Shown: in pieces, positions 2,773-56,413 of the stretch | Layout of the letters: every line of letters begins with the position of its first letter | How positions within the stretch are numbered: position 1 is the first letter of the stretch | DNA from: a virus | Direction: 5' to 3' (one strand) | DNA length: 62,770 nt | Virus record (IMG/VR): IMGVR_UViG_3300028423_000363 | Span: 1-62,770 of that record | Program-made: the position numbers and the translations under genes | The notes under the pieces: model-generated | Database searches by the model: none | What the model was told of the DNA's origin: nothing | Seen by the model: only the letters and a program-made list of their open reading frames with translations

Positions 2773-3021
2773 ATGGATATACACCCGCAACACACAAATA
2801 TAGCACAGGGCAAAGGCAATGATTTTATAGCCGATGTTATAAACTGCCCTGATGAATTAGAGCCAGTTTTGGCACAAATAGAACATATAAACGATTTAGG
2901 TAAATCTAAATGGTACGAGGTAGTTTACTATGACGGGAACTGGCGTTCTTATAGTGGAAGCAATACTTTTGATGATGGTGAAAAGGTTTTAAAATGGAAA
3001 TACTGTAAGGGTTGTTTATAA
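2773..3021 (+). CDS. Small cassette protein, unknown function
   Basis: 82 residues, acidic, with no recognised domain. The C-terminal half (WYEVVYYDGNWRSYSG) looks like a small beta-rich fold. It starts after an A-rich leader (ATTATAAACAAAATG). Its stop lies at the start of the conserved cassette-end sequence at 3019-3044. Gene length, isolation and flanking palindromes fit an integron-type cassette gene; function cannot be given. Confidence 0.7.
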   Translation: MDIHPQHTNIAQGKGNDFIADVINCPDELEPVLAQIEHINDLGKSKWYEVVYYDGNWRSYSGSNTFDDGEKVLKWKYCKGCL

Positions 3022-3044
3022 CGTAAAAGTATAACAGTAGTAAC
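3019..3044. repeat. Cassette-end repeat, copy A (26 bp)
   Basis: This 26-bp sequence (begins TAACGTAAAAG, ends TAACAGTAGTAAC) is repeated exactly at 55274-55299. Its last 13 bases are complementary, with one mismatch, to GTTATTACTGTTA at 3291-3303, so the gene between them is framed by inverted repeats. Confidence 0.85.
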
Positions 3045-3072
3045 AGAATATAAACTTTAAAATTAAAATAAA

Positions 3073-3291
3073 ATGGCAAAACCAATTTTTATAGTAGAAT
3101 CACCAATTATGCAAACACAAGAAGAGTTTGTAAACACACAAAAAGTATTAGAAAATAAATTAAATGACTACCACGTTTTGATAGTACAAACCAATGTAGA
3201 TGATTTTAATTTTAAAGTTTTTTACGATAAAGACTTTACAGAAATTGAACTTAATGATTTAAGAAAATACATTAAAGAAAAATTAAAGTAG
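3073..3291 (+). CDS. Small cassette protein, unknown function
   Basis: 72 residues with no recognised domain; predicted mixed alpha/beta (VLIVQTNVDDFNFKVFYD, then a charged C-terminal helix). It starts at ATG after an A-rich leader (TTAAAATTAAAATAAAATGG). It is flanked by the same end sequences as the unrelated 70-residue gene at 55329-55541, which marks it as cassette cargo. Confidence 0.7.
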   Translation: MAKPIFIVESPIMQTQEEFVNTQKVLENKLNDYHVLIVQTNVDDFNFKVFYDKDFTEIELNDLRKYIKEKLK

Positions 3292-3362
3292 TTATTACTG
3301 TTATGCATTGTTACTTGCAGTGCGCCTATTAAGTGTAATTGTTTGGCGCATTGCTATGTAAC
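3289..3362. repeat. Cassette-end repeat plus attC-like hairpin (array 1, site 2)
   Basis: The first 25 bases (TAGTTATTACTGTTATGC... to 3313) are identical to 55539-55563. The hairpin that follows has arms GTTACTTGCAGTGCGCC (3310-3326) and GGCGCATTGCTATGTAAC (3345-3362), pairing over GTTAC, GCA and TGCGCC with bulges and an 18-nt loop. Bulged stems with GTTAC/GTAAC ends resemble attC sites. Confidence 0.7.
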
Positions 3363-3366
3363 ATTT

Positions 3367-3433
3367 CGGCGATATGATTTGCGCCTTTATGGATTGAGTG
3401 ATTAGCGTAAATTATATTGCGTGTTATATGCCG
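3367..3433. repeat. attC-like hairpin (array 1, site 3)
   Basis: Inner arms TTTGCGC and GCGTAAA pair around a 19-base loop (TTTATGGATTGAGTGATTA) that is nearly the same as the loop at 54581-54599 (16 of 19 bases). Outer arms CGATATGAT and ATTATATTGCG extend the stem. The right end CGTGTTATATGC (3420-3431) is the exact reverse complement of GCATATAACACG at 3712-3723, so the next gene is framed by 12-bp inverted repeats. Confidence 0.72.
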
Positions 3434-3460: not shown

Positions 3461-3703
3461 ATGAAAACATTTAAAGTAAATACTGTGCAAGATATGATTG
3501 ACTGCACGAATGAAAACAACTTAGATAATTTTTTAGTAGATTTAAAAAAGATTATTGAAGCAGCTCATTATTTTAGAGAGTTAACTGATAATATGGCTGA
3601 GAAACAAAACATTTCTAAAAAATTAACGGAACTGAAAAGCAAAGGATTTGAATGGATTGACGATAGCAAACACGAAATAACTATCGAATTAAGCAGTAAG
3701 TAA
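3461..3703 (+). CDS. Small cassette protein, unknown function
   Basis: 80 residues, mostly helical and charged (NENNLDNFLVDLKKIIEAA), no recognised domain. ATG follows an A-rich leader (TTAAGAAGATATG). The gene is enclosed by perfect 12-bp inverted repeats at 3420-3431 and 3712-3723. A minus-strand frame across it is a shadow. Confidence 0.7.
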   Translation: MKTFKVNTVQDMIDCTNENNLDNFLVDLKKIIEAAHYFRELTDNMAEKQNISKKLTELKSKGFEWIDDSKHEITIELSSK

Positions 3704-3711
3704 TTTTTATT

Positions 3712-3841
3712 GCATATAACACGTGATAACATCATATATTGAACTAAAACATTATTAATCATGTAGTTACATAATATAAGTAGTTCGGAAGTGAACTTTT
3801 TATTTTTTAATTAAGTGATGAAGAGTTTGTTTTCGAACTAC
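3712..3841. repeat. Cassette end and attC-like hairpin (array 1, site 4)
   Basis: It begins with GCATATAACACG (3712-3723), partner of 3420-3431. The hairpin arms are GTAGTTCGGAAGTGAACT (3780-3797) and AGTTTGTTTTCGAACTAC (3824-3841), pairing over GTAGTTCG and GAACT/AGTTT-type ends around an AT-rich loop containing AAGTGATGA. It closes array 1 before the DUF3310 and ThyX genes. Confidence 0.6.
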
Positions 3842-5410: not shown

Positions 5411-8400
5411 TTATTTAAAAATATCATTTAACTCGTCTTCACTTCTAAACAAATCAGAATTGATATCTTTACCTGTATTCTGTTCTACCGACTTGATTAT
5501 ATCTTTTATAGATTCAGCTCTTTTACTTGAGTTAGCAGCACTTCTAGCTTGTTGATAATTCAAGGCTTTCCTTATTAATCTTGGTGCAGGTATTCTTATT
5601 GTTGATAGTAAAAACTTAGTTAAGAATTCAGGCATCTTTTCCTTAGCCTTTCTTCTTGTTTCAAACTTTTTAGCAGATTTTACTCCAGGAATTTCACCTG
5701 TTTTAGAAGCGTTTTCTATGAGACCTATACTAGAGTTAGCAAACGAACTATAAGCTCCTAACAGTTTTGTACTTGATTTCAATATACTATAAGAACTAAG
5801 TATTAAATCTCCGTTTTCATCTCTAGGAATTATAGAGTAAGTTAACGAGTCTCTGAAATTGTAAGAGTTGTCATCTCTAAGACCTACATCTACACCGAAA
5901 CCTACGTTTAGTGATTCTATACCTGTTGAAGCTAAAACCTTTTGTAAGTTCCCAAGCCTTCTCATAACAAATACATTAGCAGCTAAAGACATCCCTTCGT
6001 TATAAAGCATTTTACCAAACTCTTTATCCTCTTCTTCGTCATACTCGCTTTCAAGACCAAACACACCCATTATAGTATCTAAAACAGTTCCGTATGCAAA
6101 TTGCATCCCAAAGTTATAAGCACTCATTCTAAATAAAGTAGCTCCTAATAATCTAGCACCTCTACCTCTAGACATATCTCCTCTTTTTCCTGCAAGTGCA
6201 TCAACACTTTTGACTATAGAAGAAAATTCAGCCATTTGAAACCTCGTCATATACTTATTAAACATTTTGAGTATATTCGCTCTTTCTTCAGGATTTAATT
6301 GAGAAAAAGGAGTGCTTTCAAAAGGGTTTAAAGACGAAAATCCTTGAGATAAAACTTCATCTGCATATCTAACCGATTCATTAAGAGGTTCTATTACAGA
6401 ATCATAATATATATTATCCTCTTTCATTCTGTTAACATCTAAAGCCTTACCTGTAAGTTCTTTAAATCTAGTTTTAAAACTACCCTCCCATAAAGGAATA
6501 GCTACAGCTCTATCTGGTGCTTCTAATAATATCGAGTTAACACTTTTTATTAACCTGCCGATACCTGGCTCTTTCTTAGAAGACGTTAACTCTCCTGCCT
6601 CAACTTCTTTATACAAACTTGTCGAAGCTACAAATATTCTTGATGATTGAGCAGAGTTACCTATCCTAGCTATAAACTCTAGGTCTTCATAACTATCTCT
6701 AGCCCCTTTACTGGTTCTGTTTTTTAGCCCATAAGCTAATTCTTTAGGGTTGTTAATTATAGCAAAAGACAAGTTACTCGTTAACTCCACTCCTGCCCTC
6801 ATAGGGTCTGCTAATTGATTGTAATAACCAATCTCATTTATCCGTTTAGCAAACTTTTCGGCAAAGCTATTACTTGTATAGTAAGATGAAGCAAACTCAT
6901 TCCTAAAAACCTTTGTAAATAACTCTTTAGATGCTTCGATAAATACTCTTCCGTTTTCATCTATATTTTCATTATTTAAAGCCCTATTCATAGTTGAATT
7001 AAACTCTTTTATAGCAGGCAACATATGATAACTTCTGTATATTTTGTCAACATTTCGGCTGAAATTTTCTACATAGTTGAAATCTAAAGGATTCACACCT
7101 GCTGTTCTTTCTATTAAAGAGCCTAACTCAGAAAAATAAGCACCTCCTTCTAAAAATGAATCAGCTTCTTTTATTATACTACTTAAGTCAACTTTCTCTT
7201 TAGTTCTCACATTTAAAGGTACATAATAGTCGAATATTTCAGGAGTTTTACCTTCCATAGTTGCAACATCTATAGACATTTGCTTCCCTTTATTATTGTT
7301 GAAATTCTCTATTATGTCAAAAACTTGCTTCTCATCTTTCTTTAGGCTTTTTATTGATGCCTCTACATCTATACTTCCATCGTTTTTCTTAGGCAACTCT
7401 CTGTAAATATCCTGAACATAAGTTAAGTTTTCTCTGTATCTGTCATCCCTATTGGACTTAGCGTAAACTTCAGATGCTTTAATATATTCTTCAGGTCTAA
7501 TTCTTTTTTTAGTGTCTATGTTTTTGTTTATTTCATAAAACTTCTGAAGCTGTATTAAGTATATCTTAGCATTAAACTTCATTTTGTTAACTCTAGACCT
7601 AGACGCTTGAAGATTAACCTTGAGTACCTTCTCTCTTTTTACATTGAATATATCTAAAGCAGCAACTCCTTCTCCTTTTTGTTTGTTAATAGAGTAAGAA
7701 CCAAAACCTTTAGCGACAGATTCCATTCCCATGTACTTATAAAGCTTACCACTTTTCTTTCCTTTCAAAATGTTATCTAAATCTCTTAATTGGTTTCTCT
7801 CGGCATACCTAAACATTCTGTTTTCAGCGTCATTTTTAATAGAATTTACAGCCGCATCATAAGAATCTCTAAGTAAATTTCTATATTTCACCCCGTCTAG
7901 CTCTTGCTGAATCCCTTTATTGTTTCTGTCAGCCTTTACACTATTCATAATACTCCTAACACGAGGAGTGATAGCACCTCCTTCAGAGATTATATCTATA
8001 TTATTATTTAATACTTCTAAATCTGTATTTGTAAACCCTTTAAGCTCATCTTTTGTTATAGACTTTATAAATGCAAAATCAGTTATTTTATCTTTAGCTA
8101 CATTCTCTATTGATGTTTTCTTTTTGGATTCAAACTCACTTAATAACCCTGCATCAACCTCTTTCTTATCTTCTTTAGTTGATACTTCTTTTTCTACACT
8201 AGGTTGATTATTAAATATTTTAGCAAACTTTCTTGTTGTAGGCTTAGATTTTATAGGATTAAATCTATTACCTTTAACATTGTTAACATACTCTTCAAAC
8301 TCTAATAAATCGTTCTCTGATAACAGTTCAGGGTTTATTTGTAAAGACCTCACAAGTTCTCCATTCTGAGGTATATATTTTCCACCTCTATTTTTTTTGT

Positions 8401-30117: not shown

Positions 30118-31116
30118 TTATATTTCTAATCCGCCATCTGTGATTGTCCAACCTCTAGCAATTAAAGCGTTTCTTGCTGTTTGCCCTGCTGCGTTGTATT
30201 GTGAGTTACCACCATCAAAGGCTACGTTGTTGTTAGGGTTGTTTGCTTCTAAGTCTATCAATAATTGTGAGTAGCGTTCTGTGTTTATGGTGTTTTCTAA
30301 GAACATAGAACCGCCGTTAGTTAATGAAGGTAACTCCATCCCTGTTGGTAATGAAGTAAGGGAGTTATCCATAAACATAAAACGACCATCAGTCAACAAT
30401 GGCAAATCCATACCACTTGGTAACGATGTTAAATTATTGCCTAAAAACATAGAAATACCTTCAGTCAACAACGGTAACTCCATCCCTGTTGGTAATGAAG
30501 TTAAATTGTTTCGCACAAACATTTGTACACCTTCATTCAACAATGGCAACTCCATTCCTGCTGGTAATGATGTAATAGCATTATCTCTAAACATTCTACC
30601 AGCAACAATTAACAAAGGCATTTTCATATCGCTTGGTAATGAAGTAAGGGAGTTATCCATAAACATAAAACTTCCAATCTCTACAACTTCAAACCAAGCA
30701 CCACCACCTGCTATTTCTGATAAATTTGAGCATCCGAAAAACGCATTACTTTGATTAGGCTCATTAACTCCATACAATCCCCATTGAAGGACTTTAAGCA
30801 GTTTATTTTTATCTCCACCATCACTAAACGTTAACTTATCAAGCCCTGCTTCTTTTGGAATAACTCTTAACTCATATATACCTGCGCTAGGTAAGGTAAT
30901 TGTTTGCTCGTTAACTAAGTCGCTAAAACTTGCAACTAAGCTGTTATTTTGATAGGCTTCTACATCGTACTCGCCAACCGCACCTGTAAATTGGAATTGG
31001 TCTGCATTGCTTACCCCTGCGATAGATGTATCTACCTCAATAATGAAGTTAGGGTCGAATTTAGAATAAGACCGACCTGTTATATCAATACTGTTAGATA
31101 TCGACAATCCTACCAT
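30118..31116 (-). CDS. BspA-like leucine-rich-repeat adhesin
   Basis: 332 residues. At least five tandem units of about 23 residues (for example SMFLGNNLTSLPSGMDLPLL) lie at about residues 150-275. This is the BspA/DUF285-type LRR used in surface adhesion. The N-terminal 110 residues are beta-rich. The C-terminus SQYNAAGQTARNALIARGWT recurs in Bacteroidota LRR proteins. It is likely a receptor-binding accessory protein of the tail. The repeats are encoded by 69-bp DNA repeats, which could recombine to change binding. Confidence 0.75.
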   Translation of the reverse strand: MVGLSISNSIDITGRSYSKFDPNFIIEVDTSIAGVSNADQFQFTGAVGEYDVEAYQNNSLVASFSDLVNEQTITLPSAGIYELRVIPKEAGLDKLTFSDGGDKNKLLKVLQWGLYGVNEPNQSNAFFGCSNLSEIAGGGAWFEVVEIGSFMFMDNSLTSLPSDMKMPLLIVAGRMFRDNAITSLPAGMELPLLNEGVQMFVRNNLTSLPTGMELPLLTEGISMFLGNNLTSLPSGMDLPLLTDGRFMFMDNSLTSLPTGMELPSLTNGGSMFLENTINTERYSQLLIDLEANNPNNNVAFDGGNSQYNAAGQTARNALIARGWTITDGGLEI

Positions 31117-46230: not shown

Positions 46231-46242
46231 AAAAAACACACG

Positions 46243-46284
46243 GACTTATACCCTCTATAATATAAATATAATAAGGGTCATAGT
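46243..46284. repeat. Hairpin after the putative regulator
   Basis: GACTTATACCCT and AGGGTCATAGTT pair imperfectly around an AT-rich centre. No long T-run follows, so terminator function is uncertain. Confidence 0.5.
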
Positions 46285-46852
46285 TGATGTGTGAAAATTC
46301 TCAAACAGTTCACGAAATGTCCCAAGCTACAAAATGTAAAATTTTGCAGGAGAAGATTTTTGTTTTGATTAGGTTTAGAAAAAGCTCTGTATATGAGTTA
46401 GGTTTTAATAAGTTTAGTATATGAGTTAGGTTATACCCCAATACACATCAACCCTCACCCTTCCGAAAATCATTTCAAATCGCATAGGGGGGATCTTACA
46501 TTTTGCACTTCATTTTGAAACTTTTTAACCCTTTAACCTATCTTTTTATTGATATAGTCCAAACTTATAACCAATATTACTTTGATAAGGTTTGTTTATT
46601 TGTTGTTTGTGGTTGGTTTGTTGTTGTTGTTATCCCCTCACTTTAATAACCTACTTTATTTAATTGGTTTAAATTGTTTTGATGTTTACAGTTCGTGAAT
46701 TGTGATCTATTATTTAAGGGGCTTTAAAGGTGGTTTAAACGGTCCTTATATATATGTATGTCTTTTGTAATTGTGAATAGTTGAATAATAGTGTTAATTG
46801 TTAAAATTATGTTAAACTAATTTAATTGTATTGTGTAACTAAATTGTTGACT
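46283..46852. other. Non-coding region with repeats, possible origin or operator region
   Basis: No credible gene in about 670 bp. GTTGATGTGT (46283-46292) and ACACATCAAC (46443-46452) are exact inverted repeats. AAAATGTAA (46331-46339) and TTACATTTT (46497-46505) are another inverted pair. A G-run (ATAGGGGGGATC, near 46485) and several TTG-rich tracts follow. This could bind the adjacent HTH protein or carry a structured RNA. Confidence 0.45.
46389..46432 (+). repeat. 16-bp direct repeat
   Basis: GTATATGAGTTAGGTT occurs at 46389-46404 and 46417-46432, a 28-bp period. It is a possible binding site pair for the adjacent DNA-binding protein. Confidence 0.75.
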
Positions 46853-46860
46853 TATATTTG
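46831..46860 (+). promoter_or_regulatory. Bacteroidota promoter TTG-N19-TATATTTG
   Basis: TTG (46831-46833), 19 bases, TATATTTG (46853-46860). Spacing fits the -33/-7 consensus. It drives the accessory gene row starting at 46900, with a leader of about 35 bases. Confidence 0.75.
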
Positions 46861-46899
46861 TCCATGTAAACAAATTATTAATATTAAAACATTTGAATT

Positions 46900-47016
46900 A
46901 TGTCAAAGTATGTAACCTATTTAACTAGCAATGAAGTTGATGATGTCTTTAAATTTAACAACGGTATGCACATACGTTTCCCTAAAATTATGAATATGTC
47001 TGAAAAGGATGTTTAA
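46900..47016 (+). CDS. 38-residue small protein
   Basis: MSKYVTYLTSNEVDDVFKFN ... RFPKIMNMSEKDV. Preceded by the promoter above and an A-rich leader (CAAATTATTAATATTAAAAC). Short and unrecognised; it could be a leader peptide for the next gene. Confidence 0.45.
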   Translation: MSKYVTYLTSNEVDDVFKFNNGMHIRFPKIMNMSEKDV

Positions 47017-47073
47017 AATTGGTACTCAAAAAATCAAACAATTTAATAAATAATAACCTTTAAAACTAAAACT

Positions 47074-47673
47074 ATGGAAACTTTAAAAATGCCATTAAGT
47101 CAAGCAAAACAAAACACAAAACAAGCTAACAAGTCAGAAAAACAAAAGCTTAAAAAGATTAACGATCAATTAAAGCAAAGTAAATTAACTATAAAAAATA
47201 ATTGGTTAGAAGATACGCAAAGTGTATCGGCGCTGGTTAAATATGTTAGAAAAAATACTGAGATTGTTAAGCCATTAATCGACGCAATAAATAAAAAATA
47301 TGATGTTAATTTCAACGTTGGTAGCCTTAACGCTTCTGTTTTAAAGTTCGGTTACTTACATGAATTAAACCAAGTCAATTTAGATGGCGAAATCATTAAG
47401 CCTAAAAAATACTTTAATATTTCGTTCATGCTAAAATGTTTAGAACGTAAAGCAAAATTTGACTCAGACCTAGACAAATTTGCACCAGTAAGTAAAAAAG
47501 CAACTGAAAAAAATCTCTTAAGAAAATACTCGAATATTATACATAAAACGAGTTTAATTTTTGGGGATGATGTTCACACTTTTGTTGATCAACTAATTGA
47601 CCAGGATAAAACAATGCAGCAAATAGTTAACCGAGTTAAAACAGAATTTAAAACCCCACAATTAAACAAATAA
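47074..47673 (+). CDS. Unknown protein, first sizeable gene of the accessory row
   Basis: 199 residues, Lys/Asn-rich and helical (MPLSQAKQNTKQANKSEKQK; NAINKKYDVNFNVGSLNASV is part of a more conserved middle). No family recognised. It uses the local leader type (TTTAAAACTAAAACTATGG) and is followed by a structured non-coding stretch. Confidence 0.65.
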   Translation: METLKMPLSQAKQNTKQANKSEKQKLKKINDQLKQSKLTIKNNWLEDTQSVSALVKYVRKNTEIVKPLIDAINKKYDVNFNVGSLNASVLKFGYLHELNQVNLDGEIIKPKKYFNISFMLKCLERKAKFDSDLDKFAPVSKKATEKNLLRKYSNIIHKTSLIFGDDVHTFVDQLIDQDKTMQQIVNRVKTEFKTPQLNK

Positions 47674-47684
47674 ACCAACATTTT

Positions 47685-47739
47685 AGGCTTAATCAATAGC
47701 TTTAAAGCGTATTGCGTAGGTTCGCGACCTGTTAAGCCT
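47685..47739. ncRNA. Structured element, tRNA-like but too short
   Basis: AGGCTTAA (47685-47692) pairs exactly with TTAAGCCT (47732-47739). Inside are the palindrome GCTTTAAAGC and a hairpin AGGTTCGCGACCT with a T-arm-like TTCG loop. The 55-base length rules out a normal tRNA. Could be an attC-like end, an operator or part of a small RNA. Confidence 0.4.
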
Positions 47740-47785
47740 CAATAAATTATAAAAGTTTAACATCACGTTAACAATTTAACTGAAA

Positions 47786-47793
47786 TACTTTTG
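47786..47793 (+). promoter_or_regulatory. Possible -7 box TACTTTTG
   Basis: TACTTTTG fits TAnnTTTG inside the 670-bp gap 47674-48348. If active, the transcript would include the three-way junction at 48115-48170 before the 48349 gene. Confidence 0.35.
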
Positions 47794-48114
47794 TAATTTT
47801 ACCAAAACAAAACAAGATCTTTGAATTTTTAGATAGTTATAATTTTAAGTTACTTTAAAACGGTATTCAAGGCACGGCATGACCCTACTTTTTTACCAGG
47901 TTAATACAAAATTTGTTTTTTGTTTATACCTTAAAGCCTTAAGCGTTAACTATACTAATTTGCCTACACTATACACAAATAAAAAATATTAATATAGCTT
48001 TTTAAATTGCTTTATTACTTACTAGGATAAAGATTTTAAAGTACTTTTTAGGCTTTAATTATTTAATAAGCATTATTATATTAATAGATTTTACTTGTTG
48101 AATTGTAGGAGCTT

Positions 48115-48170
48115 GCATTATTATTTTGGCGGCTAAAATAGTCAAGCGTCGTTTGTTAGCGGCGTAATGC
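48115..48170 (+). ncRNA. Putative structured RNA with three-way junction
   Basis: GCATTA (48115-48120) pairs with TAATGC (48165-48170). Inside, ATTTT (48123-48127) pairs with AAAAT (48135-48139), and CGTCG (48147-48151) with CGGCG (48160-48164, one G-T pair). The sequence is locally GC-richer than its surroundings. The flanks include GTGCAAG/CTTGCAT near 48281-48306. Strand and function are inferred from the direction of flanking genes. Confidence 0.4.
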
Positions 48171-48348
48171 GTAGACCTTGTAGGCCAGGGCGGATCCGAA
48201 TTTATATTTTATATATTATAAACTAGGTAATAGGTTTACATGATCCTAAAGACAAACAAAGTCTTGAAAAATATTAACAGGTGCAAGTTATTGAGTTAGC
48301 TTGCATCATCTATTTTAAAACAAATACTAACTTTTAAAAAAAATAAAA

Positions 48349-48489
48349 ATGGAAAATCTAAAAAAACAATATCGCAAAAAATATGGTTATTCACCATCTG
48401 ATAATGAAATTTTAAATCTTTATTTTCAAGGTAACTTAAACCTAACAAACAAGCAGGAAAATGAAATAATAAAACATTTTAATCTTTAA
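48349..48489 (+). CDS. 46-residue small protein
   Basis: MENLKKQYRKKYGYSPSDNE then a helical tail (NKQENEIIKHF). It follows a 5' leader with an A-run (CTTTTAAAAAAAATAAAAAT) and precedes the next gene by 11 bases. The KKYGYSPSDxExL pattern is a recurrent small phage protein start; function unknown. Confidence 0.5.
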   Translation: MENLKKQYRKKYGYSPSDNEILNLYFQGNLNLTNKQENEIIKHFNL

Positions 48490-48500
48490 AAATAAAAAAC

Positions 48501-53814: not shown

Positions 53815-54135
53815 ATGACAGAAGCAGATAAAATATTAAATAAGCATTTAACTGATAATGAAGCTAAATATATAGCTGATAAAAGATTTCTTTACGACAG
53901 TTTGATAAACGCAATAAATGAAGCATTAGCTACATCTCGTGTTAGCAGTAGCTTATTAGAAATAACACTTGAAGAATGGGAACACACTTGTGACGATGGC
54001 TGCTGTTATTCTTACGGTGAAGATATATATCTAAATGGTGAGAAATTAGACGAGCAAAATGCTGAAGATAGTAGGAATGCATTAACAGCAGTACTTACAA
54101 GGTTAGGTTATGACGTTGAAATAAATTACCGCTAA
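53815..54135 (+). CDS. Small conserved protein, possible first cassette of array 2
   Basis: 106 residues. The frame could begin at GTG 53794, but ATG 53815 is preferred. The core LEITLEEWEHTCDDGCCYSY, GEDIYLNGEKLD is a small accessory protein pattern often seen in cassettes. Its stop TAA is part of the first palindrome end (GCTAAC). Confidence 0.65.
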   Translation: MTEADKILNKHLTDNEAKYIADKRFLYDSLINAINEALATSRVSSSLLEITLEEWEHTCDDGCCYSYGEDIYLNGEKLDEQNAEDSRNALTAVLTRLGYDVEINYR

Positions 54136-54206
54136 CTGGTGGCGTATAAGATTTGCGCCTTTTCAGCCGAGTAAGTTCAGCGTAAATTTTATGCGCTGTT
54201 ATGCAC
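54131..54206. repeat. attC-like site (array 2, site 1)
   Basis: Arms GGCGTATAAGATTTGCGCC (54141-54159) and GCGTAAATTTTATGCGC (54180-54196) pair with small asymmetry around a 20-base loop. Ends GCTAAC and GTTATGCAC are like attC R boxes. The 5' arm TAACTGGTGGCGTATAA (54133-54149) is identical to 55670-55686, and the 3' TTTTATGCGCTGTT to 55721-55734. Confidence 0.78.
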
Positions 54207-54249: not shown

Positions 54250-54543
54250 ATGAAAAAGCCTACAACAGAGTGTTCAATTTCGGTACAAAAAAAATCAGAA
54301 ATAACTCGTGTATTTTTAGAAAGTCAAGGATGGAAATTGATTGAAGAAAAACCACTATTTGAATCTTTTGAGCATACTAAAAATCCTTACTTAAAATGCT
54401 CTATTGGATTGTACGGTGGTTTTTCTGTAGTAGAATTACACTGGTGCAACAAAACGCCTGAAAGAGAATTTTCGACAATCAATAACGAACTAACTATTAA
54501 TGATTATCACACAATCATTCGCCTGTTAAATGTACGGGTGTAG
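54250..54543 (+). CDS. Cassette protein, unknown function
   Basis: 97 residues (RVFLESQGWKLIEEKPLFES, FEHTKNPYLKCSIGLYGGFS), a mixed alpha/beta protein found in Bacteroidota accessory DNA; no family recognised. It is enclosed by GTTATGCAC (54198-54206) and GTGCATAAC (54549-54557), exact inverted 9-mers. Confidence 0.68.
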   Translation: MKKPTTECSISVQKKSEITRVFLESQGWKLIEEKPLFESFEHTKNPYLKCSIGLYGGFSVVELHWCNKTPEREFSTINNELTINDYHTIIRLLNVRV

Positions 54544-54548
54544 TGCTT

Positions 54549-54625
54549 GTGCATAACATTCCAGTGCTATGAAAAGTGCCTTTAGGGAATAAGTGATTAG
54601 CATTTTTTATAGCACGTGTTAGCTG
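54549..54625. repeat. attC-like site (array 2, site 2)
   Basis: GTGCTATGAAAAGTGCC (54564-54580) pairs with GCATTTTTTATAGCAC (54600-54615) around a loop (TTTAGGGAATAAGTGATTA) nearly identical to that at 3386-3404. Left end GTGCATAAC; right end GTTAGCTG (54618-54625). Confidence 0.78.
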
Positions 54626-54667: not shown

Positions 54668-55258
54668 ATGAAAAATTGGACTGGAAATAAAAACAGTATT
54701 TATAAAACTTTAGGTTCGAGTAACCACACAGAAAAAAGCCGTGAGCAACATGACTATTATGCAACCGACCCAAAAGCAGCCGAATTACTTTTGGAATTAG
54801 AAAGCTTTGAAAATGTATTAGAGCCTTCTTGTGGTGAGGGACATTTAAGTAAAGTTTTTGTTGATGCAGGAATTAATGTTACAAGTAGCGACTTAATTGA
54901 TAGAAATTACGGAACTCAAAAAAGTTTTTTTGACTACGAAAAATGGAATGGCGATATAGTTACAAACCCACCTTACAAATATGGGCTTGAATTTGTAGAA
55001 CACGCTTTGAAAATAATACCTAATGGAAATAAAGTTGCGATGTTTTTAAAACTGCAATTTCTTGAAGGTAAGAAACGAAAAAAACTTTTTGTAGATAAAC
55101 CACCTAAAAAACTTTACGTATCTAGTAGTAGGCTGCTTTGTGCAAAAAACGCTGATTTTGAAGGTATGCGAAAAGGTGGCGGTAGTGCCGTTGCTTACGG
55201 CTGGTTTGTTTGGCAAAAAGGTTTTAAAGGACTTTCGCAAATAGAATGGTTTAATTAA
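54668..55258 (+). CDS. DNA adenine methyltransferase-like cassette gene
   Basis: 196 residues. SREQHDYYATDPKAAELLLE, LEPSCGEGHLSKVF (motif I, SAM binding) and DIVTNPPYKYGLEFVEHALK (motif IV NPPY) identify a DNA N6-adenine methyltransferase-like fold; GGGSAVAYGWFVWQKG follows. It is smaller than a typical type II methyltransferase and has no separate target-recognition domain. No restriction endonuclease is adjacent, so it is an orphan, perhaps for protection from host restriction. It is framed by GTTAGCTG and CAGGCTAAC. Confidence 0.82.
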   Translation: MKNWTGNKNSIYKTLGSSNHTEKSREQHDYYATDPKAAELLLELESFENVLEPSCGEGHLSKVFVDAGINVTSSDLIDRNYGTQKSFFDYEKWNGDIVTNPPYKYGLEFVEHALKIIPNGNKVAMFLKLQFLEGKKRKKLFVDKPPKKLYVSSSRLLCAKNADFEGMRKGGGSAVAYGWFVWQKGFKGLSQIEWFN

Positions 55259-55268
55259 TATTTTATTG

Positions 55269-55299
55269 CAGGCTAACGTAAAAGTATAACAGTAGTAAC
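55269..55299. repeat. Cassette-end repeat, copy B (array 2, site 3)
   Basis: CAGGCTAAC (55269-55277) ends the methyltransferase cassette. Bases 55274-55299 are identical to 3019-3044 (26 bp). The last 13 (TAACAGTAGTAAC) are complementary to GTTATTACTGTTA at 55541-55553. No long hairpin is present here. Confidence 0.82.
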
Positions 55300-55328
55300 G
55301 GAAATATTAATAACTAAATTTTTTAAAT

Positions 55329-55541
55329 ATGAAAGCAAAACTAATATATAATGGTGAAGAAACTGCAGAAACACAAGAAGTTGATTTACCACAAATACCA
55401 AGGGTAGGCGACGGTTTTTGTGTTTTAATAGACAATGTAGAAAAGCGAGTATTTGCTTCTTGTGTGGTGGAAAGCATAGACTGGTGGATTGAAAATGGTA
55501 AACTGCGAAATGTAGAAATTTATTTAAAAGACGAAGAATAG
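55329..55541 (+). CDS. Small cassette protein, unknown function
   Basis: 70 residues, beta-rich (KAKLIYNGEETAETQEVDLP; VFASCVVESIDWWIENGKLR). It sits between exactly the same end sequences as the unrelated gene 3073-3291. No family recognised. Confidence 0.7.
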   Translation: MKAKLIYNGEETAETQEVDLPQIPRVGDGFCVLIDNVEKRVFASCVVESIDWWIENGKLRNVEIYLKDEE

Positions 55542-55673
55542 TTATTACTGTTATGCATTGTTATATATCTGGTGGTGGCTAGTAAGACCTTAGCGGATGA
55601 TGAATGCACTTGATGCGATTCTGGTTTGGCGAAAATATGGGTTTATTAACCTGTGCCACCACTTGTATATAAC
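55539..55673. repeat. Cassette-end repeat plus large hairpin (array 2, site 4)
   Basis: Bases 55539-55563 equal 3289-3313. GTTATATATCTGGTGGTGGC (55560-55579) pairs with GCCACCACTTGTATATAAC (55655-55673), enclosing a 75-base loop with no gene. The stem ends GTTATATA/TATATAAC. Confidence 0.72.
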
Positions 55674-55741
55674 TGGTGGCGTATAAAATAAGCCAGCGCA
55701 ACACTGGTTAATTCGGCTTGTTTTATGCGCTGTTGTAAAGC
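55670..55741. repeat. attC-like site (array 2, site 5)
   Basis: GGCGTATAAAATAAGCC (55678-55694) pairs with GGCTTGTTTTATGCGC (55715-55730). Shares its arms with 54131-54206 but not its loop. The right end GTTGTAAAGC (55732-55741) is the exact reverse complement of GCTTTACAAC at 56371-56380. Confidence 0.78.
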
Positions 55742-55796: not shown

Positions 55797-56369
55797 ATGA
55801 AAAAATTATTAAAATCATTAGACAAAAAAATATCAGTTAGACAAGCTGGTACAGGAACAATTTATGTTTCTTTTGACGGTAAAAAAATAAGAATTGCTAA
55901 TCATGAACCTAATAGATCAATGAAAAGACAAAGAGGTTCAGCAGATCTTGAAATCTACACTCACGATTTAGTAGGTAAAGAAATAAATTCTAAGTATGAT
56001 GTTGTAGAAAAAGTAGCAGATTTTTTAAATATTGAAATTAAAGGACCTACAAAGTCAGCTATTACACGTTTTAGAAATAAAGAATTAGAAAAATCAAAAA
56101 AACTTGCTAGAATAGAAATTGAAAATGAAAAGGAAATGAAAGAAATACAAGATCGAATTAAAAAGTTTTATTCTAAAATAAAAAAGCTGACTAAAGGCAA
56201 AGAAAAAGAACTTAAACAATTATATGCTGAAGCTGAAAAATATGGCGATTTAGGCTCTAATGGATCAAAAAGAAGAAAAAGACGTACATCATATTTTAAA
56301 AGAGAATTCAAAAATAGGTTTGGAATAGAAGCAACGCCTTCAGATGTTAAAAATGCAATTAATTCTTAA
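55797..56369 (+). CDS. Lys-rich cassette protein with coiled coil
   Basis: 190 residues from ATG 55797 (a longer frame begins at ATG 55725, inside the palindrome). N-terminal TGTIYVSFDGKKIRIANHEP and EIYTHDLVGKEINSKYDVVE, then a long Lys/Glu coiled coil (KSKKLARIEIENEKEMKEIQ) and a basic C-terminus (KRRKRRTSYFKREFKNRFGI). Could bind nucleic acid; no family recognised. Exact 10-bp inverted repeats frame it. Confidence 0.65.
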   Translation: MKKLLKSLDKKISVRQAGTGTIYVSFDGKKIRIANHEPNRSMKRQRGSADLEIYTHDLVGKEINSKYDVVEKVADFLNIEIKGPTKSAITRFRNKELEKSKKLARIEIENEKEMKEIQDRIKKFYSKIKKLTKGKEKELKQLYAEAEKYGDLGSNGSKRRKRRTSYFKREFKNRFGIEATPSDVKNAINS

Positions 56370-56370
56370 T

Positions 56371-56380
56371 GCTTTACAAC
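56371..56380. repeat. Cassette-end inverted repeat, end of array 2
   Basis: GCTTTACAAC, partner of 55732-55741. No hairpin follows, so the array ends here. Confidence 0.75.
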
Positions 56381-56413
56381 ACGTAATAACAACACATAAA
56401 CACTTAAACCCTT

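Follow-up and report, generated by a model that had tools for sequence, protein, structure and literature searches.

Integron-like cassette arrays in the phage genome

The two repeat pairs analysed here, each enclosing a small gene, probably mark integron-like cassettes of the Flavobacteriia type, which are carried in CALIN-like arrays of phages with their genes flipped and would be moved by a helper recombinase. The anatomy of the sites is well supported; we infer their mobility and the enzyme responsible.

The window, i.e., the whole stretch of DNA that was analysed, is the whole of one IMG/VR record of 62,770 bp, so that the 52 kb between the repeat pairs is distance along the contig. It was recognized as a phage because this complete record encodes a phage primase/helicase (phrog_239, E 1e-85) and has a long run of genes on the minus strand; the virus infects Flavobacteriia-type bacteria. 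The 26-bp sequence at 3019-3044 (TAACGTAAAAGTATAACAGTAGTAAC) was identical to 55274-55299, and the 25-bp sequence at 3289-3313 (TAGTTATTACTGTTATGCATTGTTA) to 55539-55563, confirming the exact recurrence reported in the preliminary description. When array A was compared by BLAST with the whole 62,770-bp record, exactly two extra matches were obtained, at 55274-55303 (97% over 30 nt, E 3.6e-8) and 55539-55563 (100%, E 8e-7). The enclosed ORFs of 72 and 70 codons were unrelated, with no similarity between the proteins by BLASTP or phmmer, and the earlier view that different genes lie between the ends and that gene duplication does not account for them was upheld.

The preliminary description did not include three features: the ends are inverted relative to each other (a 16-bp stem), the stop codon of each gene adjoins the right arm, and the layout recurs at four further places in the two arrays. 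Each repeat end is one half of a single attC-like stem-loop, YAAC-N6-L''...L'-N2-TGTTR. The left end reads TAAC-GTAAAA-GTATAACAGTAGTAAC and the right end GTTATTACTGTTATGC-AT-TGTTA; because they are mutually inverted, L'' (GTATAACAGTAGTAAC) pairs with L' (GTTATTACTGTTATGC) over 16 nt and the 72- and 70-aa genes lie in the loop. A TAG stop codon abuts L' in both gene-in-loop elements. The general layout was YAAC, about 6 nt, a 16-nt arm, a loop, the complementary arm, 0-2 nt and TGTTR. The features, all on the plus strand, were as follows.

3019-3044, plus: 5' half-site A (gene-in-loop); TAAC (R'' end), GTAAAA (N6) and L'' at 3029-3044
3073-3291, plus: ORF of the 72-aa loop gene, MAKPIFIV... family
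3291-3313, plus: 3' half-site A; L' at 3291-3306, AT and TGTTA; stop TAG at 3289-3291
3310-3362, plus: geneless arc from site A to the next site
3359-3426, plus: short-loop attC-like site (loop about 20 nt), TAAC-N6-GCGATATGATTTGCGC / GCGTAAATTATATTGC-N-TGTTA
3461-3703, plus: 80-aa gene in the arc after site 3359-3426; complementary arc ends GTTATATGC...GCATATAAC
3717-3731, plus: 3' end of array A, TAACACGTGATAACA, common to array B; possible attI-like junction
54133-54201, plus: short-loop attC-like site B1 (about 20 nt)
54250-54543, plus: 97-aa cassette gene; arc ends GTTATGCAC...GTGCATAAC
54554-54621, plus: short-loop attC-like site B2 (about 20 nt)
54668-55258, plus: 196-aa DNA methyltransferase cassette gene (phrog_799, E 1e-60)
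55274-55299, plus: 5' half-site B3 (gene-in-loop), identical to 3019-3044
55329-55541, plus: ORF of the 70-aa loop gene, unrelated to the 72-aa gene
55541-55563, plus: 3' half-site B3; L', AT and TGTTA, identical to 3291-3313
55560-55673, plus: geneless arc; complementary ends GTTATATA...TATATAAC
55670-55735, plus: short-loop attC-like site B4 (about 20 nt)
55797-56369, plus: cassette gene of about 190 aa; arc ends GTTGTAAAGC...GCTTTACAAC
56377-56391, plus: array B 3' end, CAACACGTAATAACA, which matches that of array A

A strict scan with our own site scanner and thresholds found six sites in the window, all on the plus strand and in two clusters, compared with a total of three in 150 Markov-1 shuffles. 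When single-stranded DNA was folded, the L''/L' stem was present in the minimum-energy structure of all six sites; the long-loop fold of the 70-aa element was no more stable than shuffles (z 0.0). The two ends of each arc between window sites are reverse complements of each other (e.g., GTTATGCAC...GTGCATAAC and GTTGTAAAGC...GCTTTACAAC), and the observed sum of complementarity was reached by only 4 of 720 permutations of the arc-end assignment. Integron cassettes show complementary arc ends because the circular cassette rebuilds attC from its own two ends. The window carries integron-like cassette arrays without an integrase, at about 2.7-3.7 kb (array A) and 54.1-56.4 kb (array B), with no PF00589 match in the record. 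The ends of the two arrays, TAACACGTGATAACA and CAACACGTAATAACA, were the two best matches to their motif in the genome.

YAAC and TGTTR, the inverted R''/R' boxes with AAC...GTT, were present at all six sites. Only GTTR was constant in the core, and most R' boxes (GTTACTT, GTTATAT, GTTATGC, GTTAGCT, GTTATAT and GTTGTAA) did not fit the full GTTRRRY. The folded stems had the unpaired, asymmetric features of attC sites, with 16-bp stems, unequal spacers and strand-biased G-T wobbles. The four short-loop sites measured 65-70 bp; the two gene-in-loop sites, at about 290 bp, exceeded the published attC range of 57-141 bp, in which the loop is the variable part (PMC5371416).

Three other places in the window were recorded. 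A lone sequence at 2710-2735 that resembles a 5' half-site (TAAC-N6/7-GGCTATGAAGCG) and lacks a clear partner precedes an 82-aa gene; the structural gene block contains, at 30297-30656, 72-nt units repeated in tandem with 65-73% identity; and 46240-48500 is AT-rich and sparsely coding, a candidate replication or regulatory region.

Related arrays in Flavobacteriia chromosomes

A related right-half motif was found in genomes that, among the matches listed, were mostly Flavobacteriia. Among the viral and chromosomal loci fetched, most of which had been picked by one site motif, 279 sites had the same geometry, against none in shuffled loci. Chromosomal loops were about 78 nt long, 221 of the 249 measuring 70-89 nt, and only one of them contained a gene, a doubtful one. 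When 217 chromosomal sites were compared, core, spacer and loop went with the L'-side arc in 41 pairs and with the other arc in 6. The N6 spacer matched at 5.2-5.3 of 6 positions when the core matched and at 3.3, the background level, when only the upstream arc did. The spacer and core therefore move with the L'-side arc, and the cassette boundary on chromosomes lies at YAA|C, equivalent to the integron G|TT; duplicates there break at YAA|C-N6. Viral duplicates provided a single clean pair, in L223. Complementarity of cognate arc ends was 4.59 versus 2.07 (of 7) in chromosomes and 2.95 versus 1.92 in viruses, exceeding all 2000 shuffles.

In most of 13 loci holding the best integron-integrase-like gene, array sites lay within a few kb of it, and the array-side recombinase was the best TIGR02249 match in its genome. 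That of Tenacibaculum piscium (395 aa, Phage_int_SAM_4 and Phage_integrase domains) scored below the TIGR02249 cut-off and passed NF040815 marginally. TIGR02249 matches in array genomes covered only about 2-179 and 238-315 of the model. From this profile alignment, we read the array recombinase as integron-type, apparently lacking the IntI-specific additional domain. Tyrosine recombinases without the IntI-specific segment occur beside cassette arrays in many Flavobacteriia (L183:6856-8043 and L184-L195), and these pairs are possibly an undescribed integron-type platform.

Polarity of the cassettes and genes within the sites

Cassette genes ran opposite to site polarity in 118 of 125 chromosomal arcs (same in 7), whereas 36 of 37 viral genes ran with it and 1 opposite (Fisher p 8e-28, with sites within a contig not independent). 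The polarity of viral cassettes is thus flipped. A strand-symmetric second scan, in which Watson-Crick pairs alone were counted, agreed with this split: on the gene strand, viral stems contained 145 G-T wobbles and 19 A-C mismatches, compared with 19 and 93 in chromosomal stems, indicating that in viruses the coding strand is the better-folding strand.

The gene started within the loop at 29 of 66 viral sites, and at 15 of 249 chromosomal ones; it lay wholly within the loop at 4 and 1, respectively. These 66 viral sites lie outside the window and come from a set not chosen by the window's stem. The 3' half-site fell inside predicted coding sequence at 25 of 68 viral sites, and the median distance between the start of L'' and the start codon was 43 nt. 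In the annotated record of Polaribacter phage P12002L (L057), several CDSs, including an HNH endonuclease, contain the L'-R' half in their coding sequence, and the 44-aa CDS 0057 lies wholly inside a loop. The half is embedded in CDS 0037, 0058, 0059 and 0060, giving peptides like LNGVG, and recombination there could make chimeric proteins. The two P12002L arrays, at two places on the minus strand, share a 66-nt 3' end. The chromosomal counterpart of this shared end is the recombinase-proximal end, where attI would be, and the shared array 3' ends may be attI-like junctions. They were initially read as degenerate sites; an array junction fits better.

One stem around different genes in viruses

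The exact full left end followed by RGAA and the exact full right end had no match in viral contigs. When IMG/VR was searched with the 16-bp stem, the inverted pair was found around a small gene in seven other contigs, which together held five genes (in L027, L034, L036 and L043, and one gene common to L020, L028 and L047). With the window, one stem surrounds six different genes. The proposal of the preliminary description, that cassettes had entered equivalent sites, is therefore sustained in so far as cassette-type arrays are present and the same ends enclose six genes across phages. It needs revision in that the ends are the two strands of one recombination-site stem rather than two insertion sites, with the gene inside the site, in its loop, and not between sites. 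None of the 84,980 bacterial and archaeal genomes scanned contained the exact right-half pattern, nor did any of 16 array-bearing genomes, and DNA similarity searches of phage and plasmid collections returned no match.

The loop protein of L027 was a relative of the 72-aa protein at 90% identity. Window 3029-3306 and L027 1177-1454 had 95% DNA identity over exactly the span that opens with L'' and closes with L', against the chance level (33-35%) outside it; the boundaries of the 72-aa block are thus at L'' and L'. Neither the N6 spacer nor the neighbouring arc was kept in L027, so this is not the boundary expected from a YAA^C cut, and homologous or other exchange may have taken place. The comparison points to an additional exchange of stem-loop blocks at the L boundaries, which may be homologous, and shows that the whole stem-loop can be the conserved block. 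Similar geneless outer arcs of about 190 bp flank the loop gene in L027 (985-1170 and 1459-1650), so that in this contig the genes reside in loops and the arcs act as spacers. A leader of about 30 nt was common to window array B, L036 and L043. Geneless mini-hairpins with loops repeating GTTTTAATG adjoin cassette sites in L036 (7660-7750), L043 (minus strand, near 5440-5520) and L057.

The 72-aa family had more distant relatives at 14 further viral loci (a fifteenth, L228, is L027's contig); no sites were detected around these 14, which are plain operon genes. A single relative of the 70-aa protein was found, on a viral contig that lacks the stem. No match to either protein was obtained by tblastn against annotated phages, and Pfam, PHROGs and PADLOC assigned no function to them. 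Structure prediction gave a beta-alpha-beta-beta-alpha fold of moderate confidence for the 72-aa protein (pLDDT 76) and an unusable model for the 70-aa protein (pLDDT 47). The match of the 80-aa gene to AbiI was weak (17 bits) and was taken as noise.

Proposed mechanism and alternative explanations

Each cassette comprises one folded site, YAAC-N6-L''-loop-L'-N2-TGTTR, and an outer arc with its own complementary R'/R'' ends. On host chromosomes the gene sits in the outer arc against the hairpin polarity, with the loop as a spacer of about 78 nt. In phages it is flipped and reads out of the site: the leader and start codon may lie in the loop, the L'-R' half may fall within coding sequence, and a small enough gene may fit wholly in the loop. 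Recombination of the VCR site was affected only slightly when its loop (VTS) was replaced (PMC2727003), so that the loop might accommodate a small gene. The single coding strand would fold, a helper tyrosine recombinase, either the host array recombinase or another integron integrase, would cut it at YAA^C, and phages would thereby exchange cassette genes among themselves. A tyrosine recombinase match was found in 2 of 38 phage records, one of them above the cut-off, and none in the window; because nearly all phage records and the window have no such match, the helper is a guess. More tentatively, Flavobacteriia phages may keep a separate pool of inside-out cassettes, with genes flipped, some of them entirely in the loop, and the coding strand as substrate; these could be moved by a tyrosine recombinase of integron type that the host encodes and that lacks the IntI-specific domain.

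The scarcity of recombinases in the window and nearly all phage records would also suit stems that serve as homology handles, through which homologous recombination or single-strand annealing swaps genes while the arrays persist as relics with no current site-specific recombinase. The shared 25-26 bp and the leader of about 30 nt in window B, L036 and L043 could serve annealing, and the exchange boundaries fit the arms. However, the arms diverge between sites yet stay complementary, and viral arcs keep cognate R'/R'' complementarity with near-uniform polarity, which points to selection on the folded site; we consider this explanation fairly unlikely. The sharing between window and L027 of exactly L'' to L', with nothing outside, together with the six genes enclosed by one stem, could reflect a small element resembling a transposon, in which 16-bp terminal inverted repeats enclose a variable cargo and whose insertion targets are attC-like sites. 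Yet the gene-in-loop sites of P12002L CDS 0057, L206, L214, L219 and L205 have quite different stems, which fit the general attC arm pattern and are again flanked by YAAC-N6 and N2-TGTTR; on chromosomes, similar arms occur with no cargo between them, and neither a transposase nor a target duplication was seen. Such an element is unlikely. IS200/IS605-type hairpins and MITE-like elements were dropped, as there was no transposase and the stems were many and different.

It is highly improbable that the inverted arms act as RNA, as terminators, attenuators or mRNA-stability hairpins. Stems do flank each small gene on the transcribed strand, and attC sites are believed to include weak terminators (PMC9892861), but no Rfam match or U-run was found, chromosomal sites have the opposite strand orientation, and the 3' half often lies inside predicted coding sequence, as given above. 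Duplication of a gene-containing segment with later divergence, which would leave both ends identical at two loci, is almost certainly wrong and already contradicted by the data: homology between the two loop proteins was not detectable, the flanking genes differ, and the 72-aa family has conventional relatives elsewhere. The integron-like cassette, with its gene in or through the folded site, is the reading that we retain.

Significance

The findings suggest that phages maintain a gene pool of their own, from which genes can be swapped. The polarity flip predicts two cassette pools, viral and chromosomal, with genes facing the wrong way in the other's arrays, which is a simple testable rule for phage-host gene flow. 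De novo formation of integron cassettes has been described as largely unknown (PMC5371416); the same stem around six phage genes, with the 72-aa family also present as ordinary operon genes, allows gene capture into a site to be studied by comparison. Gene-containing sites of about 290 bp fall outside the published attC lengths and may escape current attC searches. The presence beside such arrays of an integron-type recombinase that lacks the IntI-specific domain would bear on the origin of integrons.

Comparison with known systems

CALINs (attC clusters without an integron integrase) are known in phages, including P12002L; two P12002L attC sites were tested, and attC2 recombined with IntI1 in E. 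coli (PMC9892861). The text of that paper describes neither genes inside the attC loop nor a polarity flip, and no description of genes inside attC loops, flipped attC sites or a viral polarity flip was found in open-access full text, preprints excluded. Like the window, P12002L is a phage without an integrase whose arrays of attC-like hairpins include small genes and DNA methyltransferases; it shares the site layout and a gene-in-loop case, and also has genes running through the site. Compared with the P12002L paper, the window presents two arrays in which some sites have short loops and others loops of 240 nt.

Integron attC sites (class 1, Vibrio VCR) share with the window the order R''-L''-loop-L'-R', the conserved AAC/GTT and a single-stranded DNA stem, and with these cassettes the ends that restore R''/R' pairing and the boundary at the GTT/AAC box. 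They differ in that the spacers here are unequal (about 6 versus 2 nt) and the arms pair without extra-helical bases, strand asymmetry coming from G-T wobbles. Two window sites carry a gene in the loop at about 290 bp. In integrons the non-coding (bottom) strand is the one that recombines and folds better, whereas viral genes here lie on the best-folding strand. The chromosomal arrays of Flavobacteriia (Tenacibaculum, Lacinutrix, Winogradskyella and Psychroserpens) have the same spacers, R boxes and arm pattern as the window; unlike the window, they have an outer-arc gene opposite to the hairpin polarity, a geneless loop of about 78 nt and a recombinase nearby.

The IntI-specific domain is held to be necessary for integron recombination, in a statement cited in PMC9668308. 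No IntI with this additional domain was found beside the arrays in the window phage. The chromosomal array recombinases, with a SAM-like and a catalytic domain, resemble IntI in giving the best TIGR02249 matches of their genomes. The array recombinases lack the model stretch of about 180-238, the IntI-specific segment, score below the TIGR02249 cut-off and pass NF040815 ('site-specific tyrosine recombinase/integron integrase') marginally.
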